Positions 16,623 through 41,759 of a DNA stretch of 41,856 nucleotides are shown in pieces. The DNA comes from Flavobacteriales bacterium (lineage in GTDB: Bacteria > Bacteroidota > Bacteroidia > CAIKAF01): assembly GCA_026418175.1 (NCBI GenBank), contig JAOABX010000022.1, forward strand, positions 1 to 41,856. Direction: 5' to 3'. The translations under genes were made by a program, and so were the position numbers. The notes under the pieces are model-generated. The model was not told where the DNA came from and ran no database searches. It saw only the letters and a list, made by a program, of their open reading frames with translations. Within the stretch, counting starts at the first letter, position 1, and the number at the start of each line of letters is the position of its first letter.

Positions 16623-16638
16623 TATCTAATTCATTATC

Positions 16639-17712: not shown

Positions 17713-17720
17713 TAAATTTG
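17713..17720 (+). promoter_or_regulatory. Putative -7 promoter element of the GH3 gene
   Basis: TAAATTTG, an exact TAnnTTTG match, 37 nt before the ATG at 17758 in the 78-nt gap after the pseudouridine synthase gene. Confidence 0.45.
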
Positions 17721-17757
17721 AATAATCAATTTTATATCTAAAATTGAATGCATCATT

Positions 17758-19308: not shown

Positions 19309-19311
19309 TCA

Positions 19312-24650: not shown

Positions 24651-24683
24651 CACTCCTTCTATTTTATTTTTTATTTTTGAGGA

Positions 24684-25628
24684 ATGTTACGCTATAAAGC
24701 AGATATACGGACATTAGCTTTTCTAGGCATTTATTATGCTGCATTTTTCGGATGTTGGTTTTTTTTGCCACTTACATGGTATTACATTCTTCCGGCTGAA
24801 ATTTTTTTATGTACCATCTCTTTTATGGTAGCCATCACTATTCACAATAGTGTACATTGCCCGATATTTAAAAACAAAATTCTAAACAAAATACACTTTG
24901 TACTGCTTGGATTAGCTTTTGGAAGCCCGGCCAGCGGCTATGTTCCCGGCCACAATCTAAGCCATCACAAACACTTACAAACCGCCAAAGACAACACCCG
25001 TACCAGCAAAATGCGTTTCAAATGGAATTTTTTGAATCAATTACTTTTCTTCTTTGTAATGATTCCAGGGATTATACGTACCGAAACGCGCTTTGTTAAA
25101 GAAGTTGGACCATATAAACCTAAATGGTATCGAACCTATAAAATAGAATCTGCATTAATTTGGATTTGGAAAATAACTTGGTTGCTTGTTGATTGGAAGC
25201 GTTTTATTTTATTCCTGCTCATTCCTAACTTATATGCGGTGTGGGGAATTTTTGGTACCAATTACTGGCAGCATGATGGTTGCGACGAAACCCATCCTTA
25301 CAATCACAGCCGTAATTTTACCGGTAAATTTTTAAACTTTTTGGTTTGCAACAACGGGTATCACGGTGCACATCACATGAAAGCATCGATGCATTGGAGC
25401 TTGTATCCTGAATATCACGAAAAATTTATTAAGCCATATTTACATCCCAGCCTGGACCAAAAAAGCTTATTGGTTTATCTCTGGAAAACTTGTATTTATC
25501 CTGGAAAGCGTGTTGATTACTTAGGGAATCCTATCATTCTTCCTCCTTACCAAAAAGATGAAGACTGGGTACGAGAAACCAAAATGAGTAGCTTGGATGC
25601 CTCCGACTTGGGAGCAGAAACCGTTTAA
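24684..25628 (+). CDS. Membrane fatty acid desaturase
   Basis: A 314-residue integral membrane di-iron enzyme. It has three histidine boxes: HNSVH (54-58), HNLSHH (90-95) and HGAHH (227-231), plus His197 in NYWQHDGCDE. Hydrophobic segments (about 12-50, 70-85, 118-132, 155-192) fit the four-helix desaturase topology. Homologues introduce double bonds into acyl chains of lipids or acyl-CoA. It follows the retinol-saturase-like gene by 33 nt and is probably co-transcribed, although a TATTTTTG also lies a few bases before the ATG. Regiospecificity cannot be read from sequence; hydroxylase or ketolase members of the same superfamily are the alternative. Confidence 0.88.
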   Translation: MLRYKADIRTLAFLGIYYAAFFGCWFFLPLTWYYILPAEIFLCTISFMVAITIHNSVHCPIFKNKILNKIHFVLLGLAFGSPASGYVPGHNLSHHKHLQTAKDNTRTSKMRFKWNFLNQLLFFFVMIPGIIRTETRFVKEVGPYKPKWYRTYKIESALIWIWKITWLLVDWKRFILFLLIPNLYAVWGIFGTNYWQHDGCDETHPYNHSRNFTGKFLNFLVCNNGYHGAHHMKASMHWSLYPEYHEKFIKPYLHPSLDQKSLLVYLWKTCIYPGKRVDYLGNPIILPPYQKDEDWVRETKMSSLDASDLGAETV

Positions 25629-25983: not shown

Positions 25984-27240
25984 TTATTTAACCAACGCTG
26001 CTTTGTAATCATTCAACATCGAAAAATAGGTTTCAGAATGTAGGGTTTTAATATTTTTCAATTCCATTCGTTCACCTAAATTTTCGCGACCTATGTAACG
26101 ATTCCTGTTTACAGTAGGATAATTTAAATTTTTATGTGCTACAATACTCCAGCAAGTGGATGAACCATTACGAACAATAACTACTGACCAATATAGGAAT
26201 AATCTCCACAAACGATACCACCATTCTCCGTATTTACTCAAAATATATTCCTTATTATCTTCCCAATTCTTATACCATGCATGCAGTGTATGAGAATAAT
26301 GGATACCAATATTTTCTATTGTAACCACTTCAAAATTTGCATCCTGTAAACATTTTACCAGAAAACCTAGCGGAGTTGAAGCATCGGCTCCGGAGAAAAT
26401 ATATTCATTCATAAACAACCCCCACACCAGGTCTTCCCAATGCTGACCTTTCTTTAAAATACCTGGATTTGCACGCAAACCTGCTTGTTGCAGGTAGAAC
26501 AATCCATCATCATTCAGTTTATCATAAATTTTATTAATGAAGTTTTGGAACTTTCGAATACCCACGTGTTCACCCATTTCCAAGCAAGTAATCTTATCGT
26601 ATTTTTCTTTATGATTGGGATTGAACAATACATCGCGGTAATCCATTCGTAAAATACGTGCACGGTCTGCAACACCATGCTCGGCAATCTGACGATTCCC
26701 ATAGTCTGTACCTTCCTGAGCCAATGTAATACCGGTTGAATCTGTACCATAGTGCTTAGCAGCAAATGCTACCAACGTTCCCCATCCGCAACCAATATCG
26801 AGGTGTTTATCGCCTGGCTTCATCATTAGCTTTTCACAAACCATGGTCATCTTGCGGTCTTGAGCCTGCTCAAGGGTTTCGGTTTGTGGATTATGCCAAA
26901 AACCTCCGGTGTATACCATACGAGGGCCAAGGAATGAAGCAAAAAAATCATTACCACGGTCATAATGTGCACGAACAATTCGTTCATCCTGTTTTTTAGA
27001 ATGGATGACTACTTCCGGAATCATTCGAGAGAAAAAGAATTTTACATGATGAGGCGTAAGTTTAAAGTCAAAGTGGGTGTTTCGCAATTCCATGAATTCT
27101 TCAAAACTGCCTTTAATATCCACTTTCCCACTGATATAATCCTCTACAAAATGTCCAAAAGATGGATTTGCTCCTTTTACATATCGGCTTTTGGCGGAGG
27201 GTGATTTCACCTCAATGAAATCTAATGCGTGTTTACTCAT
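25984..27240 (-). CDS. Cyclopropane-fatty-acyl-phospholipid synthase family methyltransferase
   Basis: A 418-residue SAM-dependent enzyme that transfers a methyl(ene) group to unsaturated acyl chains in membrane lipids. The family landmark HYDRGNDFFASFLG (92-105) precedes the SAM site HLDIGCGWGTLVAFAAKHYG (146-165), followed by GITLAQEG and the CLEMGEHVG segment (the catalytic Glu/bicarbonate region of CFA synthases). It differs from E. coli Cfa in the N-terminal region and ends in a hydrophilic tail. Mycolic acid cyclopropane synthases and fungal/plant sphingolipid C9-methyltransferases are close relatives, so methyl branching is possible as well as ring formation. It has its own promoter (27261-27268) and terminator, hence is monocistronic. 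Confidence 0.88.
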   Translation of the reverse strand: MSKHALDFIEVKSPSAKSRYVKGANPSFGHFVEDYISGKVDIKGSFEEFMELRNTHFDFKLTPHHVKFFFSRMIPEVVIHSKKQDERIVRAHYDRGNDFFASFLGPRMVYTGGFWHNPQTETLEQAQDRKMTMVCEKLMMKPGDKHLDIGCGWGTLVAFAAKHYGTDSTGITLAQEGTDYGNRQIAEHGVADRARILRMDYRDVLFNPNHKEKYDKITCLEMGEHVGIRKFQNFINKIYDKLNDDGLFYLQQAGLRANPGILKKGQHWEDLVWGLFMNEYIFSGADASTPLGFLVKCLQDANFEVVTIENIGIHYSHTLHAWYKNWEDNKEYILSKYGEWWYRLWRLFLYWSVVIVRNGSSTCWSIVAHKNLNYPTVNRNRYIGRENLGERMELKNIKTLHSETYFSMLNDYKAALVK

Positions 27241-27610: not shown

Positions 27611-28669
27611 ATGGCATCCTTATCATTTGAACATTGTATTATTAAAGGAATTTCAACGGTGGTTCCTCGGCAAATAGAGATGAATGCAAGCCTGGAGGGA
27701 TTTACCGAAGAAGAAAAACGAGCCATTATACAAACCACAGGCATAGAAAAACGCAGAATAGCTCCTGCACATATTACATCCTCCGATCTTGGTGTATGTG
27801 CTGCTAAACATTTGATGGAATCTATTGGCTGGGAAAAATCTGATATTGAAATTTTAGTATTTGTTACACAAACTCCCGATTACCTCATTCCGGCCAATAG
27901 CATGCACATTCAACATCGGTTAGGATTATCAGAAAACACATTATGCCTGGATATCAATCAAGGCTGTGCTGCATTTGTTTATGGTCTTTCTGTAATGTAT
28001 GGCATGATGACCAGCGGAAAACTAAATAAAGGAATACTGATAACCTCCGACACCATAACACATACCATTCATCCAAAGGACAAAAGCTTACGTCCAATAT
28101 TTGCAGATGCCGGTTCAGCTATTGCAATCGAATATAATCATTCCGTGAAGAGCCCTTCGTATTTTGAATTGAAAGTTGATGGAAGCCGATTTGATAAAAT
28201 AATATTACGTAATGGGGGGTTTAGAAATTTTGTAATTAAAAATGGGAATGAGAACATATCAATACCTCATCAAAATGAAATTGCATCTTGTTTATACATG
28301 AACGGGCAAGATATTTTTCACTTTGGTTTGAGGGAGATTGCCCCACAAATTCAAGAACTAATGAACAAACATGCGATTGATTCTGATTCGATTAATTATT
28401 GGATTTTTCATCAGGCAAATAAATTACTCAATGATACCATTGCCAGAAAATTGCAAATTCCAGAAAACAAACTTCTTTATTCATTGCAGGAATACGGCAA
28501 TACAAGTTGTGCCACCATTCCGGTTACCCTCTCCAATAATTACGAGTTAATCAATGGAAAAGAATTAAAAACTATTGTCAGTGGTTTTGGAGTAGGCCTA
28601 TCGTGGGGAACAGCCTACCTAGAATTAAACAACATCAACTGCCAACCTATCATTACATATGAAGACTAA
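27611..28669 (+). CDS. 3-oxoacyl-ACP synthase III-like (KAS III/FabH family)
   Basis: A condensing enzyme of 352 residues that in the family joins an acyl-CoA starter to malonyl-ACP. The catalytic triad is intact: Cys119 in INQGCAAFVYG, His267 in WIFHQANK, and Asn297 in YGNTSCATIP. The C-terminal glycine-rich VSGFGVGLSWG loop is as in FabH. The adjacent ACP probably carries the product. In glycan loci such KAS III proteins make short acyl groups, for example 3-hydroxybutyryl, for N-acylation of amino sugars; here no ketoreductase is seen. It overlaps the next gene by 11 nt. Confidence 0.9.
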   Translation: MASLSFEHCIIKGISTVVPRQIEMNASLEGFTEEEKRAIIQTTGIEKRRIAPAHITSSDLGVCAAKHLMESIGWEKSDIEILVFVTQTPDYLIPANSMHIQHRLGLSENTLCLDINQGCAAFVYGLSVMYGMMTSGKLNKGILITSDTITHTIHPKDKSLRPIFADAGSAIAIEYNHSVKSPSYFELKVDGSRFDKIILRNGGFRNFVIKNGNENISIPHQNEIASCLYMNGQDIFHFGLREIAPQIQELMNKHAIDSDSINYWIFHQANKLLNDTIARKLQIPENKLLYSLQEYGNTSCATIPVTLSNNYELINGKELKTIVSGFGVGLSWGTAYLELNNINCQPIITYED

Positions 28670-29588
28670 TATCCAGCCCGGCCTGATTTCAGTGGTTATT
28701 CCTGTGTACAACTCACAGGAAACTATTGGTAGTGTATGTAAAATTATTCAGCATCAATTGAATGAAAAACAATGGAATTTCGAAATTATTTTAGTGGATG
28801 ATCACAGTAATTCTGAAACTCAAAAAATAACAGAAAGCCTAAAACTTGAGTTTAATGATAAAATGCAACTTATACGACTAGCTAAAAATTACGGGCAGAA
28901 CAGTGCCACCCTTTGTGGAATTTCACATGCCAAAGGAGATATCGTAGTAACATTAGACGATGATTTAGATTATCGTCCAGAAGATATTATTCCGCTTGTA
29001 GAAACACTATATGCAACAGAAGCAGATGTGGTGTATGGATTTCATAATAACACTTCCATTTTAAGAAAATGGGGACGAAAAATCATTGCACGATTTTTAT
29101 ACCAAGGAAAAGGGAAATATAGTACCCTGGGATCATCATTCCGAGTATTAAAAAAAGATTTGGCAGAAAAAGTAAGCCTGCATGCACATGATCATGCATT
29201 TATTAATCAAATAATCTCGTGGTACACCAGTGATGTTGCATATTATAAACTTTCAAATAACACACCTAAAAATTCAAAATCAGGATATTCTACGTTTGAA
29301 CTTATGAAAATTGGGCTTAAGCTAATATTTTTCTATTCTTCCTTCCCCTTGTTAGCTATTATGGGTTTTTCATTTTTAGCAGCAGCAATTAGTTTTGTTG
29401 CTGGCATCTATTATCTTATTATTAAGCTTAGCAAAGGAGCTCCGCTAGGATATACTTCAACCATTGTATCAATTTTATTTGGAAGCAGTATCATCTTATT
29501 CAGTATTGGAGTATTAGCAGCATTTATCAATCGTATTTATGACACTCGTATAAAAAAGCCAACATTTTCCATTAAGCATAAAACATGA
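28659..29588 (+). CDS. GT2 glycosyltransferase with two C-terminal membrane helices (GtrB/ArnC/DPM-like)
   Basis: A 309-residue enzyme that in homologues transfers a sugar from a nucleotide donor to polyprenyl phosphate at the inner membrane. The N-terminal GT-A fold begins ISVVIPVYNSQETIG (10-24), with ILVDDHSN (44-51) and the metal-binding VTLDDDLDY (97-105). Two hydrophobic segments (about 225-255 and 265-295) follow, which is the GtrB/ArnC layout. It is translationally coupled to both neighbours (11-nt overlap upstream, ATGA overlap downstream). The likely role is making a polyprenyl-phosphate-linked sugar, possibly the N-acylated amino sugar of this operon; the sugar is inferred. Confidence 0.85.
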   Translation: MKTNIQPGLISVVIPVYNSQETIGSVCKIIQHQLNEKQWNFEIILVDDHSNSETQKITESLKLEFNDKMQLIRLAKNYGQNSATLCGISHAKGDIVVTLDDDLDYRPEDIIPLVETLYATEADVVYGFHNNTSILRKWGRKIIARFLYQGKGKYSTLGSSFRVLKKDLAEKVSLHAHDHAFINQIISWYTSDVAYYKLSNNTPKNSKSGYSTFELMKIGLKLIFFYSSFPLLAIMGFSFLAAAISFVAGIYYLIIKLSKGAPLGYTSTIVSILFGSSIILFSIGVLAAFINRIYDTRIKKPTFSIKHKT

Positions 29589-30175
29589 TGGTGATTAAAC
29601 AATATGGAATTTCACTACAATCTGTTACTGAAAATGATTTAGAAATCATCCGGCATTGGAGGAATGATGAATCCGTTTTAAAGCACATGCTATTTCAGAA
29701 AAAAATCACCCAACAGGAACAAATAGCTTGGTTTAAAAAATTAGATAAAATTCACAACTTGTATTTTATTTATAATCGTCAAGGAGTTATACATTTAAAG
29801 AATATTGATTGGGAATTAAAAGAAGCAGAAGCTGGAATTTTTACAACAAAATTGGAACATTCGTTTATTAACATTGGCGCCATCATTACGCTTATGGATT
29901 TTGCCTTTTATGCCCTTTCCATAAATCAGTTGCATGCTAAAGTAAATAAGTTATCTATTGCTAACATTACCATGAATCTTCAACTAGGATACCGAATTAT
30001 TTCAAATGAAGAAAAACATGTAAGAATGATTTGCAAACGCGCTAATTATTGCATCAATGAAAACCTAAGAAAATGGCTTAAAAAAACATCTAAAGACAAT
30101 TTGGGATTAACCATTGAATTATCTGAAAATGATAATTGGATTACACGTTATATTGAACCTAAATTTTTACGATAA
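29585..30175 (+). CDS. GNAT-family N-acyltransferase, amino-sugar type
   Basis: 196 residues. The start is ATG-ATG overlapping the GT2 stop as ATGA. The N-terminal pattern EIIRHWRNDESVLKHMLFQK, then ITQQEQIAWFKKLD, is that of sugar N-acetyltransferases such as PseH/FdtC/WecD-like GNAT proteins. The C-terminal core, INIGAIITLMDFAFYALSIN then QLHAKVNKLSIANITMNLQL and GYRI, is the acetyl-CoA fold. Next to an ACP and KAS III, the donor may be an acyl-ACP rather than acetyl-CoA; this is inference. Its 3' end overlaps the convergent gene on the other strand by 28 bp, so the last codons of both are double-coding. Confidence 0.82.
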   Translation: MMVIKQYGISLQSVTENDLEIIRHWRNDESVLKHMLFQKKITQQEQIAWFKKLDKIHNLYFIYNRQGVIHLKNIDWELKEAEAGIFTTKLEHSFINIGAIITLMDFAFYALSINQLHAKVNKLSIANITMNLQLGYRIISNEEKHVRMICKRANYCINENLRKWLKKTSKDNLGLTIELSENDNWITRYIEPKFLR

Positions 30176-31029
30176 TCAATCCCCCAAGCTTTAAGCTGTA
30201 GTAATAGCATCAAACGAATAGGGAAACAAGGATGAATTCCCCACTTAAAAAAACGAACCAAAATAGGAGAATCGGAAAACGGAATATTTTGAATCTCCAA
30301 ATCAGGAAATATCTTATTGATAACAAGATAATATTGTTCTCTATTATAAGCAACATATTCCTTCGGCTGACGGCGTTTAAAAATTTCCATCCCAATATGA
30401 AATGTATGATCAATATCCTGTAACCAATTGAGTTTTTTGGAATATGCAAATAAGTTTTGTGAAAACGATATTTCAAAAAAAGGTACGCCGATGCATACAT
30501 CACCCAGAAAAAATTTTGAATACAACGAACGATGAAATACAAAACAATCAAAACCGGGATGGGATTTCCCAGGTTGTTGAAGTATTAAATCCAAATCATC
30601 CAGTGAATGATACAAAGGCTTAATTCTACGGCGATTAATTATCAAGGCATCATACCCCTGATTCAAATAAGCATGAAGTTTCAGATAAAAATTTGGATAA
30701 AGTGAAATATCAATATTGGAGTAAATATAAAAATCAGCTTCAACCCGATGATATGCAACATTAAGAATTTCTGCAATGAGAGGTAACTTTCTGGGAACCT
30801 TGAATGAACATTTATTTAAAACAGATTGCTGCAAATAAGGCAGCGCAACAAAATCATTGGGTATTATCTGTTGATCTTCAGGATAAGTAACACAACAAAC
30901 TTCTATATCAACAATTCCGGAAGCTTCTTTTCTTGCTTTTCGAATCGTTTCAAACGTTACTTGCTGAGCAAAATTCAAATCAGAGGAAGAAGGCGGTTGA
31001 AAGGGATTGATAATATGCGCTATCCTCAT
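30148..31029 (-). CDS. Putative glycosyltransferase, last gene of the minus-strand glycan operon
   Basis: A 293-residue protein that I do not place in a named family. It starts MRIAHIINPFQPPSSSDLNF and has a GT-A-like centre: ADFYIYSNIDISLYPNFYLKL (99-119, DxD-like NID) and PGFDCFVFHRSLYS. This resembles glycosyltransferase-like proteins of capsule/O-antigen loci. No signal peptide or membrane helix is evident. Its ATG overlaps the stop of the upstream gene (ATGA), so it is co-translated with that glycosyltransferase-like gene. Donor and acceptor are unknown. Confidence 0.65.
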   Translation of the reverse strand: MRIAHIINPFQPPSSSDLNFAQQVTFETIRKARKEASGIVDIEVCCVTYPEDQQIIPNDFVALPYLQQSVLNKCSFKVPRKLPLIAEILNVAYHRVEADFYIYSNIDISLYPNFYLKLHAYLNQGYDALIINRRRIKPLYHSLDDLDLILQQPGKSHPGFDCFVFHRSLYSKFFLGDVCIGVPFFEISFSQNLFAYSKKLNWLQDIDHTFHIGMEIFKRRQPKEYVAYNREQYYLVINKIFPDLEIQNIPFSDSPILVRFFKWGIHPCFPIRLMLLLQLKAWGIDYRKNLGSI

Positions 31030-32201
31030 ATGTATTGATTGGGTTTAAACGTAAGTATTTTGTTCCAGAGGCTCCAATCAGTATCACCAAAATGATGATA
31101 CACATGAATAAAATTAGGATAAATGTTATTTTTTTGAATTGTAAAACAACCATTATCTTGAAGAAAAATGCCTGAAGTATTATAATCTATAATTAGATTC
31201 CATTTTTTAGAAAGCGTAGGATGATTTTGCATGCCCAATTTCCAAACTGTAGCTACCAGCGTACCTTGATCGCGAATTTTCCAATTTGGGTCTGAAAAAA
31301 TTTGCTTTGTTAATTCATGCCAAGTTTGCATAAAATTGTTGACACCTGTATTAAATAAAAAAACGCCGCCATTCCAATGTTGCCAATTAGATTTACGAAT
31401 TGAGATAGCAAATTTATTTTCAATATTTTCTTTTAAATGATTGCAATTATCTTTAAATACAGGCCTTCCATCAGGTAGTTGAATTTCTTGCTTTAATAAA
31501 TTCCATCGAAGTTCTAGCTTCCTTGCAATATATTTTAAATTCACATTTCGCATTATCACTCGACCGGACGAATCATACCAAAGTTGAGTGGATTTATCCA
31601 ATATGAAATCATGTAACTTAAATTGATATGGTGATAAAAAATAACGCAGATAAAAAAATATTTTTGTATAAAAATTTCGTTTCACATAAGCTATTCGATT
31701 GAATAATAATCTACGTTGATTTATTATATAAACATCTTTACTTTGAGAATATTCATCTTGTAAATTTATTTCATACTCAATTTTTCTTCTTATGTTTTGA
31801 AACATATCTAAACAACCACAATTTACAGCATACGAGCTAAATTGTTTTAATTTACAATGATCTGGAGCGAAGGTTACCGGAGGAACATATTGATCAAAAA
31901 TTTTATCTACATTTTCACTCCAGGCAAGCACATCACTGTCTAAATATGCTACCAGATAATTAGCTGGTAATATAGTATGTAATGATGTTTTGAGATAAAT
32001 GGAAGCCTGATGATGACTATATGAAGGATCTACATTTATATCTATCAGATTAGAATAATGAATAGGATATTCGTTTCGTTTAGTATCTGTAACTACAAAA
32101 ATGGGATATTTAGTTCGGGCAGAAAGCCATTCATAACTTTCTTTCAGCATGTTTAAATGCTCTGAAGCGCCACACACTACAAAAACAAATGCTCGTTGCA
32201 T
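31026..32201 (-). CDS. Putative glycosyltransferase (GT-A fold, DxD motif)
   Basis: 391 residues. The N-terminus AFVFVVCGASEHLNMLKESY and YPIFVVTDT (33-41) are followed by ASIYLKTSLH and YLVAYLDSDVLAWSENVDKI (83-102), where Asp88-Ser-Asp90 is a DxD metal site. Later NGGVFLFNTGVNNFMQTW is the NxGVxLFN-type segment found in GT8-like and related hexosyltransferases. It is a long, Trp/His-rich variant and I cannot name the sugar. It lies 13 nt after the asparagine synthetase gene and overlaps the next gene by 4 nt, so it belongs to the same transcript. Confidence 0.72.
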   Translation of the reverse strand: MQRAFVFVVCGASEHLNMLKESYEWLSARTKYPIFVVTDTKRNEYPIHYSNLIDINVDPSYSHHQASIYLKTSLHTILPANYLVAYLDSDVLAWSENVDKIFDQYVPPVTFAPDHCKLKQFSSYAVNCGCLDMFQNIRRKIEYEINLQDEYSQSKDVYIINQRRLLFNRIAYVKRNFYTKIFFYLRYFLSPYQFKLHDFILDKSTQLWYDSSGRVIMRNVNLKYIARKLELRWNLLKQEIQLPDGRPVFKDNCNHLKENIENKFAISIRKSNWQHWNGGVFLFNTGVNNFMQTWHELTKQIFSDPNWKIRDQGTLVATVWKLGMQNHPTLSKKWNLIIDYNTSGIFLQDNGCFTIQKNNIYPNFIHVYHHFGDTDWSLWNKILTFKPNQYI

Positions 32202-32214
32202 CTTTTAAAATGAT

Positions 32215-33996
32215 TTATTCCATCCAAACCTGCCACCAGTTTTCAAGTACAAATAATTTCCAAAGTTTCCAGTGATCTTTTATTTCAATACATGTTTGAA
32301 GATACGATTTATTTATTACTCCATGATTGATTATCAAACCATTCATCAAAGTGTTTGAATATAATTGATAATTCATATAAAACTTATCGGGCCCCACAAA
32401 CCCTTGCTTTGGTCTATTTAAAATAATATCAGGAACGTGATTTTTAAGCACCGACTTTAAAAAAGGTTTTTGATCGGAAGGTTTAAAATAAACGTTGGGA
32501 TGTAAACTCAACATAAAATCAACCAATGCATGATCTAAAAAAGGAACCCTTACTTCTAACGAATGAGCCATGGAAGCTCGATCCATTTTGGTTAATATTA
32601 ATTCATTCATGAATGTATGGAGATCGAGCAATTGTATTTGTTTTAAAACAGGAAGGCCATCATATCTATAAGTATCTAAATGCTCAAACGGATCATCCGG
32701 AATATTTTTTAAAAATTCACTACTTAAACATTGCTTTAACTCATTTCGACTAAACAACCCCATACTCATGGCATGTATGTAATGCTGTTTAATCTGCTTA
32801 AAATCAAGTTTTTTAATTTTACGCAGCCATTTTTGCAAAACAGAAGCATAGTAAAAATGTTGAGGTTTATGCCACCAATAGCCCCCAAGTATTTCGTCGG
32901 CACCCTCCCCAGAAACTACCGCTTTTACATGCCTTCTGGCTAATTCACTGACAGCATAAGTTGGAAGAATAGAAATATCTGCTATGGGGTCATCGTAGTG
33001 CCACATTAACTTTTTAACTTGGTCTAGCTGAATTTTATCAAGAATTTCAGCATGCCACATGGCACCTGCAGCTTGTGCAACCATCTCTGCATATTGATGC
33101 TCACTTTCATTCCAGTCCTTAAATCCAATCGAGAACGCATGAGTAGGATAATTGAGAGACTTTTGCATTAGCAATACCAAGGAAGAAGAATCTAAGCCAC
33201 CGCTTAAAAATGATCCTATGGGTACATCAGCTATTAAATGTTGTGATAAGGATTGTAATAATAAATGATAAAATGATTCAAAAGCCTCTTTACTGTTCAG
33301 CACTAAGTTATCAACCTTTGGAGTATAATAGCGTTGTAATGAATATGTAAAATCATTCAAATTTAATTCTAAAAAATGTGCCGCAGGCAGCTTTAAAATA
33401 TTCTTCCAGATAGTGTGGGGAGAAGGGATGTACCGATTGGCCAAAAACCATGAAATAGCAGCAGCATTAATATCCTTCTTCAAGTATGAGGTAGCCAAAA
33501 TCCCTTTTAATTCTGAAGCAAATAAAAACATGGATGAATTAAGGGAATAATAAAGTGGTTTAATACCAAAACGATCACGACATAAAAATAGTTTTCCATT
33601 ATTTTCATCAAACAATGCAAAAGCAAACATGCCAGATAGTTTTTCAGGCAACCTTTTACCCCATATTTTATAGCCGTGTATTAAAACCTCGGTATCAGTT
33701 TGCGTTTTAAATATGCACCCATGTGCTTGAAGTTCTTTGCGAAGCTGCCTGAAATTATAAATTTCGCCATTTAACACTACATGGATTGAAGCATCATCGC
33801 TGCACATGGGTTGATGCCCGGCTGGTGATAAATCAATAAAAGATAATCTTCGATGAATAAGCCCTGCTTTTTTATTTTCAGATAAATATAATCCCTCATC
33901 ATCTGGCCCCCGATGTTTCAATGCATTAGACATGCGTTGCAATGGCTGTATATCCAACAACAATTCTTTTGAAAAAACACCTCCAATGCCACACAT
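32215..33996 (-). CDS. asnB: Asparagine synthase (glutamine-hydrolysing) family amidotransferase
   Basis: 593 residues. The mature start MCGIGGVF places Cys2 as the glutaminase nucleophile; HRRLSFIDLSPAGHQPM, LNGEIYNFRQLR and TDTEVLIHGY complete the class II amidotransferase domain (1-~200). The synthetase domain carries the PP-loop SFLSGGLDSSSLVLL (263-277) and VSGEGADEILGGYWWH. In glycan loci AsnB homologues often amidate uronic acids or act on other carboxyl groups instead of making free asparagine; nothing in the sequence settles that. It is a middle gene of the minus-strand operon: the UbiA gene ends 1 nt upstream and a glycosyltransferase follows 13 nt downstream. Confidence 0.92.
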   Translation of the reverse strand: MCGIGGVFSKELLLDIQPLQRMSNALKHRGPDDEGLYLSENKKAGLIHRRLSFIDLSPAGHQPMCSDDASIHVVLNGEIYNFRQLRKELQAHGCIFKTQTDTEVLIHGYKIWGKRLPEKLSGMFAFALFDENNGKLFLCRDRFGIKPLYYSLNSSMFLFASELKGILATSYLKKDINAAAISWFLANRYIPSPHTIWKNILKLPAAHFLELNLNDFTYSLQRYYTPKVDNLVLNSKEAFESFYHLLLQSLSQHLIADVPIGSFLSGGLDSSSLVLLMQKSLNYPTHAFSIGFKDWNESEHQYAEMVAQAAGAMWHAEILDKIQLDQVKKLMWHYDDPIADISILPTYAVSELARRHVKAVVSGEGADEILGGYWWHKPQHFYYASVLQKWLRKIKKLDFKQIKQHYIHAMSMGLFSRNELKQCLSSEFLKNIPDDPFEHLDTYRYDGLPVLKQIQLLDLHTFMNELILTKMDRASMAHSLEVRVPFLDHALVDFMLSLHPNVYFKPSDQKPFLKSVLKNHVPDIILNRPKQGFVGPDKFYMNYQLYSNTLMNGLIINHGVINKSYLQTCIEIKDHWKLWKLFVLENWWQVWME

Positions 33997-33997
33997 G

Positions 33998-34999
33998 TTA
34001 GTTTATTTTTAATTCTTTTAGATTAGAAAAAATCTTCATAAATAATTTTTTAAAATAAAAGATTGTATGGTTAAAAACAAGCAGATGAATAAATGATAAT
34101 ATAATTTTAGTTTGAAAATGATGAGGCGCAGCCCATATCGCCAAAAAAGGAAGCCAGAATTCGTAATAATCATTTAAAAAATAATGAAACTTAAAGATAA
34201 AGTACCGAGAATTCATAAAATAAAAATACCAGCCTGAAAAAAAGAAAAAATAAACTGATAGAAAAATCAGCCAGAAAATAATGGGATATGTTGATATATT
34301 TAAAAGTATTATAGAGATAGTAGTAATTAAAATTATTTCAAACGGTATTATTATCCTATTAATAAATTTTACAGTAATATAAGGTCCAAATGTTAATGGA
34401 AATGATTTTAAATTCATCTTTTTGTCTCCTTTCCTGTCATGAAGCTGATGTAATAAAATGTTTCTCAGTCCTTTACAAAAAAATAAAATGTAGATGGGTA
34501 TAAGCCAACAGGAAAACGTATTTTCAACAAACAAAAACCAGGTAAATAAAATTGGGAGAATATGAGTATAATGTGCATCAAATAATGGTCCGAGTATCGG
34601 GTGATTTTTAAATCGTATGCCCGGTAAACAATACATGGCAAAAAAGAGCACTTCTGCAACAAAAAACAAGGTAGCTATAAATGAAGGATTGCATAAAAAC
34701 CAGGTAAATAAGGCAAGAGATAAAATCAATATAGCACCAGTAATGCGAAGCGGTAGAGATGTTGCTTCAAGAAAATTACTTTTCCCAGACTTTCTATCCA
34801 GGTCAATATCAAAACTATCATTAAGCCAGTAGCCAAAAAAGCTAACAAAAAAAAGAGATAATAAATAAAATAATAATTTTATTATATCTACATAAATTAA
34901 TTTTTCAAAAGAAAAAAAAAGATATACCAATGCAATTACTGGAGGAATTAAATGATTCTTCCATTGAACAATTCTCTTATGTAAAAGTTCAATTCTCAA
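33998..34999 (-). CDS. UbiA-family prenyltransferase
   Basis: A 333-residue integral membrane protein with about eight or nine hydrophobic segments. The first aspartate motif is N60-D-S-F-D-I-D-L-D68, followed by RKSGKSNF, which is the UbiA NDxxDxxxD site for prenyl diphosphate and Mg2+. A second acidic motif LHDRKGDKKMN lies near 188-200. UbiA enzymes prenylate aromatics, haem or, in the DPPR subfamily, put phosphoribose onto decaprenyl phosphate for cell-wall glycan. The location between asnB and two methyltransferases in a glycan operon favours a DPPR-like or lipid-anchor role over quinone synthesis, but this is inference. It lies 4 nt after the upstream methyltransferase. Confidence 0.82.
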   Translation of the reverse strand: MRIELLHKRIVQWKNHLIPPVIALVYLFFSFEKLIYVDIIKLLFYLLSLFFVSFFGYWLNDSFDIDLDRKSGKSNFLEATSLPLRITGAILILSLALFTWFLCNPSFIATLFFVAEVLFFAMYCLPGIRFKNHPILGPLFDAHYTHILPILFTWFLFVENTFSCWLIPIYILFFCKGLRNILLHQLHDRKGDKKMNLKSFPLTFGPYITVKFINRIIIPFEIILITTISIILLNISTYPIIFWLIFLSVYFFFFSGWYFYFMNSRYFIFKFHYFLNDYYEFWLPFLAIWAAPHHFQTKIILSFIHLLVFNHTIFYFKKLFMKIFSNLKELKIN

Positions 35000-35003
35000 T
35001 CAA

Positions 35004-35798
35004 TTAATTCATAAACAATGTTTCATTATTCAAATTATCAATTCCATATTTTTCGATAAAATAACGCAGGTTCTTGTGATTAATAAAAATATCAGCATTA
35101 ACCATTTCAGGCGAATCTCTTTTTTCTGATAAAATTAAATACGTTCGAGGTATAGTATGAGTATCAAACTTTTTAGAAAGAATATCAACTCTTTTAAAAT
35201 AAATTGAAAACCATCTCACCCATTGATCTAGCATTGGATAAATCATATATTTATGAGTACTTAGTTCATCTTTAAATGTCCATATTACAGCATTCAATAC
35301 TTGACTTTTTGATTCTAAAATCATTACATCAAAATTGTATTTGTAATTAATGTTAAATGCAATCTGAACATCATCAGGTATTAAAAGAATTTTACCAGAC
35401 AAGGAACACCAATTATATAGATTCAATACAAATTTTTCAATATCATTGATCGAATTCAAATAAGACCAAGGTTGTCCGGTACAAGAAATAAAATCCCATT
35501 GATTATTCCATTCCTGAGATTCTTCAGAAACGTTATGTTTTATTAAAAACAGGCAATCTTCATTACCTAATTTTGCAACTTCCAACATTTCTTCTGAAAT
35601 ATCAAATCCAGCACGTTGAATTCCTTTGAATTTCTTTAAAAAAAAACCTGTTCCACAACCAACATCCAGCCATTTTATTCCTGGTTTGAGATTTTCAGAA
35701 ATAATTGACTGTATATATTTCATTTCTGGCAACCATTTGGGATTATCAATCCACATTTTATCATACATTAATGCATATTCTTTACCGTATAGTCTCAT
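35004..35798 (-). CDS. SAM-dependent methyltransferase
   Basis: 264 residues from the ATG at 35798, chosen because it overlaps the upstream stop as ATGA; an earlier start would add 11 residues and overlap further. The class I SAM site is IKWLDVGCGTGFFLKKF (41-57), followed by the acidic AGFDISEEMLEVAKLG and, after WDFISCTGQPWSYL, motif IV. The C-terminal half (KYNFDVMILE, YMIYPMLDQWVRWFSIYF) is not family-specific. The substrate is probably a sugar or lipid intermediate of this operon, judging from context only. Confidence 0.82.
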   Translation of the reverse strand: MRLYGKEYALMYDKMWIDNPKWLPEMKYIQSIISENLKPGIKWLDVGCGTGFFLKKFKGIQRAGFDISEEMLEVAKLGNEDCLFLIKHNVSEESQEWNNQWDFISCTGQPWSYLNSINDIEKFVLNLYNWCSLSGKILLIPDDVQIAFNINYKYNFDVMILESKSQVLNAVIWTFKDELSTHKYMIYPMLDQWVRWFSIYFKRVDILSKKFDTHTIPRTYLILSEKRDSPEMVNADIFINHKNLRYFIEKYGIDNLNNETLFMN

Positions 35799-36556
35799 AT
35801 AGATTTTTTTGATGCAATTAATTCCCTCCAATGTATGGCATTAGTTTTCTGAATTAACTGATATGTTTTTAAGCCATAAGCTTTTTCAAAATCAATAACC
35901 TTTTGAAAATTAGGGATATAATTGGGTTTGTTAAAGCTAATTATATTAAATCCCAATTCATTCATTGCTTTAATCATTTCATTATGCAATACTGGGTGAT
36001 AAAAATAATTTTCCTTGATATATTTTATTAATTTATACCCTGAAGTAAATGGAATGTATTTATCAATCCAATAATTTATGTAAAAGTCTTTTGAATAAAA
36101 TATACCTTGAGTTTTAAGTATTTTTTTTACCTCAGAAAGTACTTGTTTATAATTATTAGAATGAAATAATGATTCATTAAAATAAATAGCATCGAATGAT
36201 GCTTCATTAAAATAAAATGACAACTGATGAAAATCGCCCAAAATAAATTCTACATTTAAAACATTTTCTTCATTTTTAAGTTGATTGCAAATTTTGTATT
36301 GTTCTTCTGAAATTGTAATTCCAAAAAAATTAATCTTTGGCCGCAATTTTGCCATTTCAATGAGCATTTTACCCATACCGCATCCACAATCTAATACTGA
36401 ATTTCCATCAAAAACATTGAGCTTGCTTAATATGTAAAGGGGTAAATTAAAATTCTCTGGTGGAGCGCAGCCATGTATGTAGTAACCAGTAGTTGCCAAG
36501 TAAACTCCGGTACTACTCTCATACAATTCTTTTACTTTTTTTGTATTGCTATTCAT
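35795..36556 (-). CDS. SAM-dependent methyltransferase (UbiE/GPP-methyltransferase-like)
   Basis: 253 residues. The N-terminal YESSTGVYLATTGYYIHGCA, then PPENFNLPLYILSKL, precedes the SAM motif SVLDCGCGMGKMLIEMAKL (53-71). Further conserved pieces are FFGITISEEQYKICNQLK and FDAIYFNESLFHS. This arrangement resembles methyltransferases acting on small polyketide, sterol or prenyl diphosphate substrates, so with the UbiA gene next door a prenyl or lipid acceptor is possible. It lies 9 nt after the TPR membrane protein gene and overlaps the next methyltransferase by 4 nt. Confidence 0.82.
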   Translation of the reverse strand: MNSNTKKVKELYESSTGVYLATTGYYIHGCAPPENFNLPLYILSKLNVFDGNSVLDCGCGMGKMLIEMAKLRPKINFFGITISEEQYKICNQLKNEENVLNVEFILGDFHQLSFYFNEASFDAIYFNESLFHSNNYKQVLSEVKKILKTQGIFYSKDFYINYWIDKYIPFTSGYKLIKYIKENYFYHPVLHNEMIKAMNELGFNIISFNKPNYIPNFQKVIDFEKAYGLKTYQLIQKTNAIHWRELIASKKSI

Positions 36557-36565
36557 TCATACTTT

Positions 36566-38584
36566 TTAATATACAAATCCCTTTTTCCTGGCCTCAATTT
36601 TATAAAAATTAGCTTCTTCTCTCATTCCCCATTCTTCCAATTGATGAATGATTCTTTGATAAACAACTTGTGGATTTGCGCCATAGGATAATAATTCAAG
36701 TGTTTGTTGGATAAATTTATCCTTATCTTTCTTTTCAGAATATACAACAGTTAAAGCATCTTTATATATTTTAATATCATTTGGAAAATCTTTCATTGCT
36801 TTATTAGCAATTTCAATCGCTATATCAAAATTTCCCAACTTCGATTCAATTAATATTAATAAATAAGGTATCGCTTCATAATATGGTGCAAATTCCCGAG
36901 CTCTCAATAGCGAATCTTTAGAAGCTTGATATTCCCCTAAATGATATAAATTTTGTCCAATGTTAAATAACACTGGTCCTCGGTCAGGAAAAAGTTGGTT
37001 GGTTTCTACAAAAATATCCAACGCATCCTGATAACGCTTTTGTGAGGAATAATACATTCCTAGTTCCATTCTTGAATAATACACATACTGTGGAGCAATT
37101 TCAATACTTCGTTTGTAATGATGAATCATCTCTTTTTCCAGTTTGGGTTGTAGTGATGGATTTTTCTTAATATCAGTCCACAAGATATTTGCATAGTAAT
37201 AATGTACCCTGGAACAATTTTCCAAGTTTTTCATATCGGTAAATACCAGTGTTTTATCATCTTTCCAAACACCGGTTCGATTGTATGATAAAATAGTATA
37301 AACTACTCCTATGGCCATGAATGAAAATACAAGCGACTTTTTGATTTGCAAGGTTAAAGCATTCTTACTTTTTGAATCATTACTAAACGTCCATTTTACA
37401 TTAAAAATTAATCCGACAAAACCAACAAATAGCATACTCAGCCCCAAAGATGGCATGAACATAAAGCGGTCTGCCATAGTATCAGAAAGCTTGCGAATGA
37501 TGTGTAAATAAATTGAAATTGAAAAAATAAAAAATAATGCCCCCAACCATAATTCCGGACGATTTTTACTAAAACGATAAATCAAATAAATTATTCCTCC
37601 AATTACTAATATTGCAAGCCATACCCAGGCATCCAACCAACCTCTTACCGGTATATGGTTATATCCATAATAAAATACCAGTGGATAAGGTATCACGAAC
37701 ATTTTTAAATAAAGTATCAATATAACCAAAACTGTTGGTAGTTTATTTAATAAACCATCGGTATGAAATAATGAGTTTCCGAGAATATCGTCTTCTTTTA
37801 CAATATTTCGTTCAATCATTTCATTTTTTCCTACGGATGATGACTCTGCCAGTTGAAAAATCAATACCGAAATAATAATCAATATGAGCACATGGATATT
37901 ACTTAAAATCATGCGCTTCATTTGGCTTCGCCATATACTTTTATATTCAATCAAATAAATTAACGGAAAAAGCAAAAGAGATGTAATCGCATTTTCTTTG
38001 GATAGAAATGCCATAAAGTAGGTAAGAACAACGCCAACTAAATAAATCCATTGATGGCTTCGAATAAATTTTACATATGCTGAAAGTGAAATAATAACAA
38101 ATAACATTGCTAATATTTCATCCCGGCTTTTGATGTTTGCAACAACTTCCACGTGCAATGGATGTACAGTAAAAATTAGTGCAATCAAAAACGAAAAAAC
38201 AGGATGATAATTTTTAAATAGCTGTTTTAAAAAATTAAAAATCAATATACACAAGAGAGCATAATACAATAAATTCATCAAATGATGATAATACGGATTT
38301 ACTCCCCACAATTCAATTTCTAATGCAAAGCTCACCAATGTTACGGGGCGGTATCCATACTGATCATGCCGATAAGGTGACTTAACCTTGGTAAATAATT
38401 CAGGTATGGCCTTTATCCCGTTTTTTACCCGAGGATTTTCCTGAATTACAATCTTATCATCCCAAACAAAGCCAAAATCAAGCGTTTGCCTATATTGAAT
38501 AAATACAGCCAAAAGCAATATTGCAACATATATGTAGTTCCAGGGAGTAGATTTTTTTATTACTTTCTCATCTCTATTTACCAT
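36566..38584 (-). CDS. Multi-pass membrane protein with C-terminal TPRs, TMTC/O-mannosyltransferase-like
   Basis: 672 residues. The N-terminal ~460 carry roughly ten membrane helices with GT-C features: GFVWDDKIVIQENPRV (38-53, Asp pair in the first outer loop), RHDQYGYRPVTLVSF, and HPLHVEVVANIKSRDEILAM (141-160), which resembles the TMTC signature. The last ~200 residues are tandem TPRs (for example YSRMELGMYYSSQKRYQDAL, then NIGQNLYHLGEYQASKDSLL). Animal TMTC1-4 share exactly this order and transfer mannose from dolichol-phosphate to protein. Here the donor could be the polyprenyl sugar made by the GT2 gene. It overlaps the upstream glycosyltransferase by 11 nt. Confidence 0.78.
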   Translation of the reverse strand: MVNRDEKVIKKSTPWNYIYVAILLLAVFIQYRQTLDFGFVWDDKIVIQENPRVKNGIKAIPELFTKVKSPYRHDQYGYRPVTLVSFALEIELWGVNPYYHHLMNLLYYALLCILIFNFLKQLFKNYHPVFSFLIALIFTVHPLHVEVVANIKSRDEILAMLFVIISLSAYVKFIRSHQWIYLVGVVLTYFMAFLSKENAITSLLLFPLIYLIEYKSIWRSQMKRMILSNIHVLILIIISVLIFQLAESSSVGKNEMIERNIVKEDDILGNSLFHTDGLLNKLPTVLVILILYLKMFVIPYPLVFYYGYNHIPVRGWLDAWVWLAILVIGGIIYLIYRFSKNRPELWLGALFFIFSISIYLHIIRKLSDTMADRFMFMPSLGLSMLFVGFVGLIFNVKWTFSNDSKSKNALTLQIKKSLVFSFMAIGVVYTILSYNRTGVWKDDKTLVFTDMKNLENCSRVHYYYANILWTDIKKNPSLQPKLEKEMIHHYKRSIEIAPQYVYYSRMELGMYYSSQKRYQDALDIFVETNQLFPDRGPVLFNIGQNLYHLGEYQASKDSLLRAREFAPYYEAIPYLLILIESKLGNFDIAIEIANKAMKDFPNDIKIYKDALTVVYSEKKDKDKFIQQTLELLSYGANPQVVYQRIIHQLEEWGMREEANFYKIEARKKGFVY

Positions 38585-39482
38585 CCAAAATTCGATTAAG
38601 CATAAAATTAAACATATCCTTGTATGTTTTCCATAAAATTTTCCAAGAAACTATTTCTTTTTTAGGATCATAGCCCGGAAGTTCGTTACACAACACAGAT
38701 AAGTATTTTTCCCAAAAAGGTAATAATAAGGAATCCTTTCCGGATACTATTTGCTGAATTGTATAATAATTAAAATGAATAAATATTAAAGGCCAGGTAT
38801 TATTTAACACCAATTCTCCCTTGTTATTAATTGACCGAAGGCTGGTTTCAATGTTCCAGCCGGCAACATTACATCCTCTATGTTTTATAATTTCAACATC
38901 ATCAAATAATACCGGCATCAAATCTAAATATTTTTGATCATCAAAAAGGCCTCTGGAATAAGCCTTTTTTACATTGTATAAACAACATTTACCCCACCAC
39001 CGCATTGCCTCTCTGCCTGATTTTGAAACTCCAATAAAACCAGCGTTATAAAGCCCAACACGAAAATTAGCTTCCAACCAAATTTGATTACTTGTAGGAT
39101 CAGCCGGATAAAAATGTGGTGTTAATAATACTGAACGCTGACTTAATTGTTCAAACAAAAATTCAGGAGAATTAAAAAAATAAATATCATTATCCACATA
39201 AATTACTGCATCATACCCACTATTGAGTAAATACGATAAAAAAAATGGCTTGCTGGCCCAGCGTCTTTTATCCTTGTTATATTTTTTAAGACGGTATGTT
39301 TCATTTGTAATTAATTCATCAAATGGAATTACATTATATAATCCATCCTGTTCTTTCATATAGGGCTGGTCTATATATAAAGCAAAAAAATCAGCTTGCG
39401 TAAATTCTTTAAGCGAAGAAAAGAGAGCACGGGTTTTAAACCTGTGAGATATGGTTGATATCGTACAAACAGCCGTTTTCAC
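38574..39482 (-). CDS. Putative glycosyltransferase (DxD), first gene of the minus-strand operon
   Basis: 302 residues. The N-terminal CTISTISHRFKTRALFSSLK, then YDAVIYVDNDIYFFNSPEFLF (90-110) with Asp97-Asn-Asp99 as DxD, YNAGFIGVSKSGREAMRWWG, and later GCNVAGWNIETSLRSIN and HFNYYTIQQ give a GT-A-type enzyme. This resembles glycosyltransferases of the Bacteroidota surface-polysaccharide type. No membrane helix. It heads the eight-gene minus operon; 98 nt separate it from the divergent gene starting at 39581, and a TTTG-N18-TATTTTTT-like pair is a possible promoter there. Confidence 0.72.
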   Translation of the reverse strand: MKTAVCTISTISHRFKTRALFSSLKEFTQADFFALYIDQPYMKEQDGLYNVIPFDELITNETYRLKKYNKDKRRWASKPFFLSYLLNSGYDAVIYVDNDIYFFNSPEFLFEQLSQRSVLLTPHFYPADPTSNQIWLEANFRVGLYNAGFIGVSKSGREAMRWWGKCCLYNVKKAYSRGLFDDQKYLDLMPVLFDDVEIIKHRGCNVAGWNIETSLRSINNKGELVLNNTWPLIFIHFNYYTIQQIVSGKDSLLLPFWEKYLSVLCNELPGYDPKKEIVSWKILWKTYKDMFNFMLNRILDGK

Positions 39483-39580
39483 GATCCGATTTGTGTAAAA
39501 ATAAAAAATAGAATCAATTTTTTGCTAGCAAATCATTATTTGTTTCTTTCAAAATGAATAATTTATACCTTGTATTTAGT

Positions 39581-40603
39581 ATGGGAACATTCAAACCGTA
39601 TCTTTCAATTATTGTTACAAGTCGAAATGATGCTCATCGACTTGACTTAATATCTCGTCTTCGTACCACCATTGATCAGTGGAGTAAGTTATGTAATGAA
39701 TATCGATTAGCCACAGAATACTTAATGATAGAATGGAACCCTCCACCTGAAAAGCCTCCCCTAAAATCAATTCTTCAGGGCATACCGTTAAATGAATTTT
39801 TTAAAATAAGAATCATCACAGTTTCTGAAACTATCCACCGAAAAATTGATCCTCAAAATACCATTCCCTTGCATCAAATGATTGCAAAAAATGTTGGCAT
39901 CCGAAGAGCATACGGAGAATTTTTACTCTGCACCAACCTTGATATTTTTCCAGATAGCTTATTGATTCAAGAAATTGCAAAAAAAACACTTCAGCCCGGT
40001 ATTTTTTACCGAGCTAATCGGTGTGATGTCCCCGATAATATTTATACAATCGCTAACCATGAATTGGAAAATTATTCCCGAAATCATATTATCCGACGCA
40101 TGGGCATGGATGCACGCTGGCCTGGACTTAAAGTTTATAAAAAACAATACTGCATATATCGTTATTCTTTGTTTAGGCCATCTTACCCATTATTGCTGAT
40201 TTTAAAACGAATCATTTTGGGCGAAAAAAAATTCAATATTGCAAGAATTGATAAAGAAGCCTGCGGAGATTTTACTTTAATGAGCAAACACGATTGGCTG
40301 AAAGTACAAGGTTATCATGAGTTTCCCGGATATCCATTACACATTGACTCACTGGCTTTAATAAAGGCATCATTGATAGGAATAAAACAACATATTTTCA
40401 ACAAACAATGTTGTGTGTATCACATAGACCATACAGGAAGCTGGACGGAAGAAACAGCCCATACGCTTCAAATTAAAAAACCGTATATGACTTGGAAAGA
40501 AATCGAAAAAATAATATTACGTATGAAAGAAGGATTTTTTATTTACAACGACCCGGAATGGGGGTTACTCAATGAAAAATTATCGGAGGTATGGGTCTCA
40601 TAA
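39581..40603 (+). CDS. Glycosyltransferase-like protein (GT2-type)
   Basis: Taking the ATG at 39581 gives 340 residues (nine more if the ATG at 39554 is used; only the later one gives the usual GT-A start). The N-terminus is KPYLSIIVTSRNDAHRLDLI, followed by TEYLMIEWNPPPEKPPL (45-61) and KNVGIRRAYGEFLLCTNLDI (103-122), which is the nucleotide-binding LD site. The pattern is a recurring one in Bacteroidota and proteobacterial glycan loci and seems to be an inverting GT-A enzyme, substrate unknown. It is followed 31 nt later by the sugar aminotransferase gene and is probably co-transcribed with it. Confidence 0.7.
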   Translation: MGTFKPYLSIIVTSRNDAHRLDLISRLRTTIDQWSKLCNEYRLATEYLMIEWNPPPEKPPLKSILQGIPLNEFFKIRIITVSETIHRKIDPQNTIPLHQMIAKNVGIRRAYGEFLLCTNLDIFPDSLLIQEIAKKTLQPGIFYRANRCDVPDNIYTIANHELENYSRNHIIRRMGMDARWPGLKVYKKQYCIYRYSLFRPSYPLLLILKRIILGEKKFNIARIDKEACGDFTLMSKHDWLKVQGYHEFPGYPLHIDSLALIKASLIGIKQHIFNKQCCVYHIDHTGSWTEETAHTLQIKKPYMTWKEIEKIILRMKEGFFIYNDPEWGLLNEKLSEVWVS

Positions 40604-40634
40604 ATTCCTTTGATTTTACTAAATTCACCCTACT

Positions 40635-41759
40635 ATGATTCCTTTTAATATACCCTATCAAAATCCCAACTTGCAAAAAGATATGCATGCAGCATTATCT
40701 GATCCGCGTATTTTTAGAAATCAGGGATTTTATCATCAGGAAGCCAGAAACAAACTTGCTCAAATTTTAAATGTAAATAATTCAAATTTATTTCTTACTC
40801 CTTCCTGTACACATGCTTTAGAAATTATTACTCATATTATTGATATTGAGCCAGGCGATGAAATTATTTTACCTTCATATACCTATGTATCTACTGCCAA
40901 TGCATTTTTTCTAAAAGGGGCTACCCTGGTTTTTGCTGATGTACTTGCTTATCATCCATCTTTGAATATTGCAGATGTAGAAAAAAAAATTACATCACGC
41001 ACCAAAGCCATCGTATTAGTTCATTATGGTGGAATTGGTATAGATGTTATCGAATTCAGAAAATTGGCAGATCGTTATAACATCCTATTTATCGAAGATG
41101 CAGCTCATACATTAGGAGCTACCTATAAAAATAAACCTTTAGGAACGTATGGCGATTTTGCAACCATTTCATTTCACGAAACTAAAAATCTAGGATGTGT
41201 ACAAGGAGGCGCATTATTAGTTAATAATCCAAAATACATTGAAAAAGCAAACACAGTAACTCAATGTGGAACCAACCGGCTGGATTTTATGAATAAAAAA
41301 ACAGTTCGGTATAATTGGGTATCACAAGGTACTAATGGTATTCTGGCAGAACCACTTTGCGCAATTCTTTCATCACAACTAACCCACTTGGAAGATGTTA
41401 CAAAAAAGCGTAAAAATCTTTGGCAAACTTATTTTCATGCATTTCGTGACATAGTGAATCATCAAAACTTATTTTGCATTGATTCAGAAGAATCCAATGG
41501 TCATATTTTTTATTTATTATTTAAAAATGCTGATGAAAGGATATTATTTATGAAATTCATGACTGATCATCAAATTGAAGTAACAACTCATTATCAAGCA
41601 TTGCATCATAGCCCATTTTATCTAAAACACCATTCAGATATATCCTTGATTGAAACTTCAAAATTTCACAACACATTAATTAGACTTCCCTTGTATCATG
41701 CATTGGGAGATTGTGAACAATCAAAAATTATTGAAACGGCAATTCGGTTTTTTAAATAA
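40635..41759 (+). CDS. wecE: DegT/DnrJ/EryC1/StrS aminotransferase, WecE-like sugar transaminase
   Basis: 374 residues, a PLP enzyme that aminates a dTDP-4-keto-6-deoxyhexose (WecE makes dTDP-4-amino-4,6-dideoxygalactose). It is close to WecE: MIPFNIPYQN start, LTPSCTHALEIITHI (54-68), PSYTYVSTANAFFLKGA (80-96), VHYGG, EDAAHTLGATYKN (Asp155 for the PLP nitrogen) and TISFHETKNLGCVQGG (Lys184 Schiff base). The product would be a 4-amino sugar that the GNAT (29585-30175) could acylate. No dTDP-glucose dehydratase (rmlA/rmlB) is in the window, so the keto-sugar must come from elsewhere. Confidence 0.87.
   Translation: MIPFNIPYQNPNLQKDMHAALSDPRIFRNQGFYHQEARNKLAQILNVNNSNLFLTPSCTHALEIITHIIDIEPGDEIILPSYTYVSTANAFFLKGATLVFADVLAYHPSLNIADVEKKITSRTKAIVLVHYGGIGIDVIEFRKLADRYNILFIEDAAHTLGATYKNKPLGTYGDFATISFHETKNLGCVQGGALLVNNPKYIEKANTVTQCGTNRLDFMNKKTVRYNWVSQGTNGILAEPLCAILSSQLTHLEDVTKKRKNLWQTYFHAFRDIVNHQNLFCIDSEESNGHIFYLLFKNADERILFMKFMTDHQIEVTTHYQALHHSPFYLKHHSDISLIETSKFHNTLIRLPLYHALGDCEQSKIIETAIRFFK

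Follow-up and report, generated by a model that had tools for sequence, protein, structure and literature searches.

A separate subfamily of UbiA-type prenyltransferases at the core of variable Bacteroidota surface-glycan loci, with a candidate role in isoprenoid modification of glycans

Surface-glycan loci that combine a UbiA-fold enzyme with a GT-C glycosyltransferase, as the locus reported here does, are known from the three-component pentofuranose systems (PPPRS UbiA, MATE flippase and GT136 GT-C; PMC11127046) and from mycobacterial DPPR/DPA synthesis. The pentofuranose three-component system is the nearest described one, and the present locus differs from it in UbiA clade and motif. In contrast to both known types, the locus UbiA retains the prenyl-diphosphate DxxxD motif, is coupled to an AsnB-GTb pair and, in relatives, to terpene cyclases, and is accompanied by a TMTC-like GT-C with TPRs. 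The UbiA, single-domain cyclase and P450 found together in relatives resemble the UbiA/class II cyclase pathways to meroterpenoids (MstE, merosterolic acid), but that set is embedded in glycan loci that also encode AsnB and many glycosyltransferases, where a pathway to an aromatic acceptor was not recognised. Wzm/Wzt O-antigen loci with tailoring methyltransferases have glycosyltransferases, sugar-nucleotide enzymes and Wzm/Wzt in common with the sister loci, whereas here the core includes a UbiA prenyltransferase and the locus analysed is without Wzm/Wzt. Lastly, DGGGP synthase and chlorophyll synthase are the nearest solved sequences to the locus UbiA and share both Asp-rich motifs with it, but differ in clade, in their low identity to it and in genomic context. 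A literature search, with subscription papers and preprints mostly outside its scope, did not find this UbiA subfamily with AsnB and terpene cyclases in surface-glycan or O-antigen loci, and the suggestion in the initial annotation of a candidate undescribed pathway thus stands as far as searchable papers go. We regard the locus as a variant of known glycan loci that may make a wholly new class of product. Our preferred reading, held with moderate confidence, is that it makes a surface glycan or glycolipid bearing an isoprenoid, in which UbiA would prenylate a sugar intermediate and neighbouring enzymes would modify the chain.

The window (the whole stretch of DNA analysed, 41,856 nt) is the entire contig C14 of a 2.68 Mb Flavobacteriales genome that is 99.7% complete. 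An ORF check of the window recovered the eight consecutive minus-strand genes annotated at 30148-39482, in the order GTc, TPR protein, MT2, MT1, UbiA, AsnB, GTb and GTa from the operon 5′ end. The overlaps or spacing of at most 13 nt that had been reported were also found, with gaps, by increasing coordinate, of -4, 13, 1, 4, -37, 9 and -11 nt, and this tight spacing makes it likely that the run is one transcript. A promoter scan of the window gave 85 predictions against 83 expected, which is chance level. Pfam and NCBIfam bore out the assignments of UbiA, a full AsnB, two SAM methyltransferases and a TPR membrane protein, whereas the three proteins called glycosyltransferases had no Pfam match. 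The GC content of the operon is 0.27-0.35, compared with a mean of 0.36 for the remaining window genes; low GC is usual for surface-glycan loci.

The eight-gene run is the middle part of a larger two-strand sugar locus at about 27,611-41,759. Its flanks, KAS-GT2-GNAT (27611-30175, plus strand) and GTd-WecE (39554-41759, plus strand), recur in the same loci of other genomes, and because they travel with the locus we count them as part of it. The right end of the contig (41780-41856, minus strand) looks, on visual reading, like the C-terminal end of a secreted T9SS type-B (CHU_C-like) protein and marks the locus border. Upstream lie a cyclopropane-fatty-acid-synthase-like gene (25984-27240, minus strand) and a FAD oxidoreductase and fatty-acid desaturase pair (23019-25628, plus strand), the latter also flanking the locus in L029 and L032. 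A GH3-family protein of the acyl-acid amido synthetase type is encoded at 17758-19308 (plus strand) of this bacterial genome.

At the centre of the system is a UbiA-type integral-membrane prenyltransferase of a new subfamily (33998-34999, minus strand; PF01040, 6e-14). Subfamily members carry the motifs N[DE]xxDxxxDxxxxKxN, RxK and DxxxD, in that order: N60, D64 and D68 are kept in all 52 aligned members that cover them, D188 and D192 of the DxxxD motif in 53 of 53, and K73 and N75 likewise in all covering members (52-53 of 53 aligned). In the members from L097 and L111, which make up a long branch of their own, the conserved His that precedes the second DxxxD has been lost. Five proteins of the genome scored above the UbiA cut-off, and two of these group with E. 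coli CtaB (CyoE) and MenA; the locus UbiA groups with neither, instead belonging to a distinct 50-sequence clade (SH-aLRT 98) on a quick tree whose deep branching around this clade is weak. A MenA or CtaB reading, the outcome that the initial annotation had set against its own proposal, is ruled out by this tree.

The initial annotation had also drawn an analogy with DPPR and arabinogalactan synthesis. A fuller version of this idea is that UbiA makes a polyprenyl-phosphate pentose donor, in the manner of DPPR synthase or PPPRS, which is flipped and then used by the GT-C, and the co-location of a UbiA protein and a GT-C in one surface-glycan locus does reproduce the layout described in PMC11127046. 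In PPPRS and DPPR synthases the loop IV residues R366 and E369 take the place of the second DxxxD (Kelly et al. 2024, PMC11127046), and in our alignment these R and E residues fall at the position of the second DxxxD of the locus UbiA, which is without the PRPP-type second motif. The genome moreover encodes a true DPPR synthase on contig C44 (5e-45 to PDB 8j8j), and the locus UbiA lies outside the DPPR clade. Tree, DxxxD motif and separate synthase together rule out the DPPR/arabinogalactan reading of the enzyme, and a pentose donor would leave the coupling to terpene cyclases unexplained; we consider this account, whose models are the systems of Kelly et al. (2024), quite improbable. The C44 synthase adjoins a DprE1-like FAD protein (FAD_binding_4), and the pair (L046, 5965-8192) suggests that this Bacteroidota genome has a polyprenyl-phosphate-arabinose pathway apart from the locus.

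Profile searches with the locus UbiA gave DGGGP synthase (3e-9) and chlorophyll synthase (9e-9) as best solved matches, compared with only E=0.012 for DPPR synthase (8j8j). The AF2 model (pLDDT 89) has the UbiA fold and is closest to 4tq3 and 4tq4, the GPP/DMAPP-bound UbiA structures (4tq3: Z 19.1, 240 aligned residues, rmsd 3.1), followed by DGGGPS (Z 16.9) and DPPR synthase (Z 15.3), although identity to DGGGP synthase and chlorophyll synthase is low, at about 20% over the aligned fold. Given both Asp-rich motifs, the profile matches and this fold ranking, use of a prenyl diphosphate is most likely. The proximity to DGGGP synthase, the closest solved sequence, also lends itself to another explanation, in which UbiA would supply an uncommon lipid that carries or anchors the glycan, for instance one with an ether-linked prenyl head group like the DGGGP synthase product. 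Such a role would explain the core position of UbiA and its occurrence in export loci with Wzm/Wzt, but no glycerol-phosphate enzyme was recognised in the compared loci, and a cyclase, a P450 and multiple PhyH oxygenases fit decoration of a product better than an anchor, without making the latter impossible. We think an anchor unlikely and return to prenylation of a sugar intermediate as the preferred role. In four loci (L033, L034, L037 and L094) UbiA is fused to a C-terminal GT4 glycosyltransferase as one protein of 750-770 aa; these fusions tie prenyl transfer to sugar and argue that the prenyl acceptor would be a sugar or the GT4 product.

A single-protein search of genome contigs gave no match, and a profile built from close relatives recovered 11 named loci, all from MAGs and mostly labelled Bacteroidetes or Flavobacteriales. 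Neighbourhoods were compared over 52 loci from about 50 Bacteroidota genomes, and 395 genomes sampled evenly from the class were searched for the UbiA subfamily at a threshold of E<=1e-15. The subfamily was present in 40 of the 395 genomes, in 36 of them far below this threshold, a patchy spread of the kind that a variable surface locus should show. The gene combination is conserved across many Bacteroidota genomes, and the notion that it is limited to this one is rejected. Three layouts were recognised. In the first, to which the window locus belongs, UbiA, in places followed by F25, precedes AsnB, an epimerase and GTb, with Wzm/Wzt, GTc and GT-C. In the second, an epimerase, a UDP-glucose dehydrogenase-like protein, a GDSL protein and GT-C accompany a UbiA that often adjoins a GT4 or is fused to one. 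The third is small, with GT4, GT2 and UbiA, joined in some loci by an ABC exporter and the terpene cyclase TC.

The initial annotation had singled out a set of UbiA, two methyltransferases and the TPR membrane protein. What is conserved instead is a core of UbiA, AsnB and GTb, often with Wzm/Wzt and a TMTC-like GT-C, and the two methyltransferases are a swappable, variable part of the locus. The AsnB-type glutamine amidotransferase (32215-33996, minus strand) has GATase and Asn_synthase domains, an N-terminal Cys2 and a TIGR01536 score of 467 bits against a cut-off of 267, and is predicted to amidate a uronic acid or another carboxylate. It is directly beside UbiA in 18 of the 52 loci and no more than six genes away in 29; two further full-length Asn_synthase proteins, on C44 and C55, mean that it is not the only AsnB of the genome. 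Its core partner GTb (31026-32201, minus strand) is a putative GT-A glycosyltransferase of an unnamed family, identified by motifs only, with invariant Y-L-D-x-D and DQG motifs. Of the 52 loci, 26 have AsnB as well as GTb and 22 have neither, leaving four mismatched.

GTa, GTb and GTc matched no Pfam family and, by sequence, no solved glycosyltransferase, and they are putatively GT-A-like solely through conserved DxD-type motifs. GTa (30148-31029, minus strand), convergent with GNAT, has an invariant NxD motif, and its family was seen in nine loci of the initial clustering, each of which also has GNAT and GT2. GTc (38574-39482, minus strand), which usually adjoins the GT-C, has an invariant DND motif and is conserved in nine loci. 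Between GTc and MT2 lies the membrane protein with C-terminal TPRs (36566-38584, minus strand; PMT_2, 1.2e-5), which we take to be a TMTC-type GT-C glycosyltransferase; D42-D43 after helix 1 and an HxEV..K.RDE block are invariant in all 11 aligned homologues. On the plus strand, GTd (39554-40603) is a putative glycosyltransferase with no Pfam match, from a family of 18 members in 12 loci, and the following gene (40635-41759) encodes a WecE-type aminotransferase for a 4-amino-4,6-dideoxy sugar (PF01041, 2e-73; NF008687, 356 bits), found in seven of the clustered loci. The opposite flank, also on the plus strand, begins with a KAS III-like acyl-condensing enzyme (27611-28669; PF08541/PF08545), syntenic with GT2-GNAT-GTa. 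GT2 (28659-29588; PF00535, 4e-26) has hydrophobic C-terminal segments, read from the sequence, and is probably a polyprenyl-phosphate sugar synthase, and the GNAT acyltransferase (29585-30175; PF13420, 1.6e-6) probably N-acylates an amino sugar. The functions of these families suggest that KAS, GT2 and GNAT, with WecE, yield a polyprenyl-linked acylated amino sugar.

The slot on the side of UbiA away from AsnB varies between genomes, holding MT2, PhyH oxygenases, radical SAM proteins, a P450 or the cyclase family F17. In the window it holds MT1 and MT2 only, and terpene cyclase, P450 and PhyH genes are absent from the window. About six PhyH-type oxygenase genes stand in tandem beside UbiA in L037 and L125. 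MT1 (35004-35831, minus strand; PF13489, 1.7e-8) is a SAM methyltransferase of a small family (four members in three loci) and belongs to the variable tailoring part. MT2 (35795-36556, minus strand) is a SAM methyltransferase whose family often adjoins UbiA, being beside it in 11 of the 52 loci. Its profile matches RebM-type 3bus (7e-31), the glucose O-methyltransferase 6uv6 (8e-25) and the terpene methyltransferase TleD (5gm1, 1.7e-24), so that its likeness to sugar O-methyltransferases is at least as great as that to TleD, in which C-methylation triggers terpene cyclisation (PMC8159823). Because the profile matches both kinds, MT2 may act on sugar or on the prenyl chain; as proof of terpene methylation it was ruled out, since sugar methyltransferases match equally well. 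MT2 and TC occurred together in one locus once, compared with about 5.5 expected (Fisher 0.004, 52 loci), but this significance was lost after correction for the UbiA tree, which weakens such exclusivity as strong evidence.

The product of family F17, here TC, is a single-domain class II terpene cyclase on the agreement of its sequence, its DxDD motif and its predicted fold. Its profile matches drimenol synthase (2e-9), and a DxD[DTNAS] motif stands at the expected place in nearly all members. The model (pLDDT 84) resembles drimenol synthase (Z 27), the single-domain cyclase MstE (Z 25) and squalene-hopene cyclase (Z 24) more closely than unrelated alpha/alpha barrels (Z 19 or less). MstE structures contain bound prenylated dihydroxybenzoate according to their titles, and TC is therefore the type of enzyme expected after a UbiA prenyltransferase. 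Strong TC-profile matches were found in 14 of the 395 genomes, from 10 genera, and all 14 have the UbiA subfamily, with TC and UbiA within about 6 kb of each other in 11 and on separate contigs of the assemblies in the other three. The chance of this co-occurrence would be about 5e-16 if genomes were independent, a figure that is too optimistic because the genomes are related and because the TC profile was built from neighbours of UbiA, in loci found via UbiA, and favours UbiA-linked cyclases. Genomes without the UbiA subfamily gave weak matches only, to proteins of 476-535 aa, a length that matches drimenol-synthase-type enzymes. Across the UbiA tree, TC has been gained or lost at the locus about eight times.

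A P450 lies within six genes of UbiA in nine of the 16 loci with TC, compared with none of the 36 without. In L095, L096, L126 and L127 the gene next to UbiA encodes a 707-717 aa fusion of a P450 and a class II terpene-cyclase-like domain, and because of the fusion these loci count for both P450 and TC. An acyltransferase-P450 fusion was seen in L119. As a specific marker, P450 was rejected, since 94 of the 395 genomes have one; only its position beside TC is informative. UbiA, a single-domain class II cyclase with an MstE-like fold and a P450 make up the enzyme set of a meroterpenoid pathway, and the smallest loci (L085, L083 and L119) consist of GT4, GT2 and UbiA, in places with an ABC exporter and TC; the loci might then make small glycosylated meroterpenoid natural products and not a surface polymer. 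We judge this distinctly unlikely, given that O-antigen hallmarks (many glycosyltransferases, GT-C, a sugar aminotransferase and epimerases) are found in the window and in most loci, and that relatives have Wzm/Wzt.

Those Wzm/Wzt genes, confirmed by Pfam, lie within many sister loci, and in relatives WecE is followed by Wzm. No flippase was found among the Pfam-annotated window genes. The lack of an exporter is particular to this contig and is not shared by those sister loci or by the rest of the genome, where the only Wzm is paired with a Wzt on contig C23. That contig carries a second glycan locus (L110, positions 1-20000) with a Tyr/Gly-rich Wzc-like tail, Wzm, Fcl- and Gmd-like enzymes, Wzt, many glycosyltransferases and a divergent AsnB-like protein. 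Continuation of the window locus into C23 was considered and dropped, as the right end of the window reads as the tail of another protein, C23 opens with the Wzc-like tail and the two have no sequence overlap.

We infer the acceptor, the product, the prenyl length and the order of steps for the preferred isoprenoid-bearing glycan as follows. The soluble enzymes GTa to GTd would assemble the sugar part, AsnB would amidate a carboxyl group, probably of a uronic acid, and WecE, GNAT, KAS and GT2 would provide the TMTC-like GT-C with an acylated amino sugar linked to a polyprenyl carrier. At the inner membrane, UbiA would use a prenyl diphosphate as donor and prenylate the sugar intermediate at a hydroxyl or carboxyl group. 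The prenyl chain might then be cyclised, oxidised or methylated by enzymes encoded beside UbiA, which in some genomes are a class II terpene cyclase and a P450 and in others PhyH oxygenases; here they would presumably be MT1 and MT2, if these act on the prenyl chain rather than on a sugar. Export would proceed via the Wzm/Wzt ABC exporter in many relatives, and the GT-C would finish the exported product. More tentatively, and with less confidence than in an isoprenoid-bearing product as such, we propose that the Bacteroidota-wide UbiA subfamily and its swappable cassettes (cyclase, P450, PhyH or methyltransferase) give rise to a terpenoid-capped O-antigen-like polymer, an undescribed glycan modification.

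If this is true, about one in ten genomes of a broad sample of the class would have a single locus that joins terpenoid tailoring and polysaccharide assembly, two chemistries thought to be separate. Surface properties, phage receptors and export signals would change with such hydrophobic terpenoid caps, and UbiA and the cyclase would offer a new means of producing terpenoid glycoconjugates. Whatever the product, the loci define a UbiA subfamily that is new and whose donor can be tested, and they provide a clear marker set for finding cultured strains.
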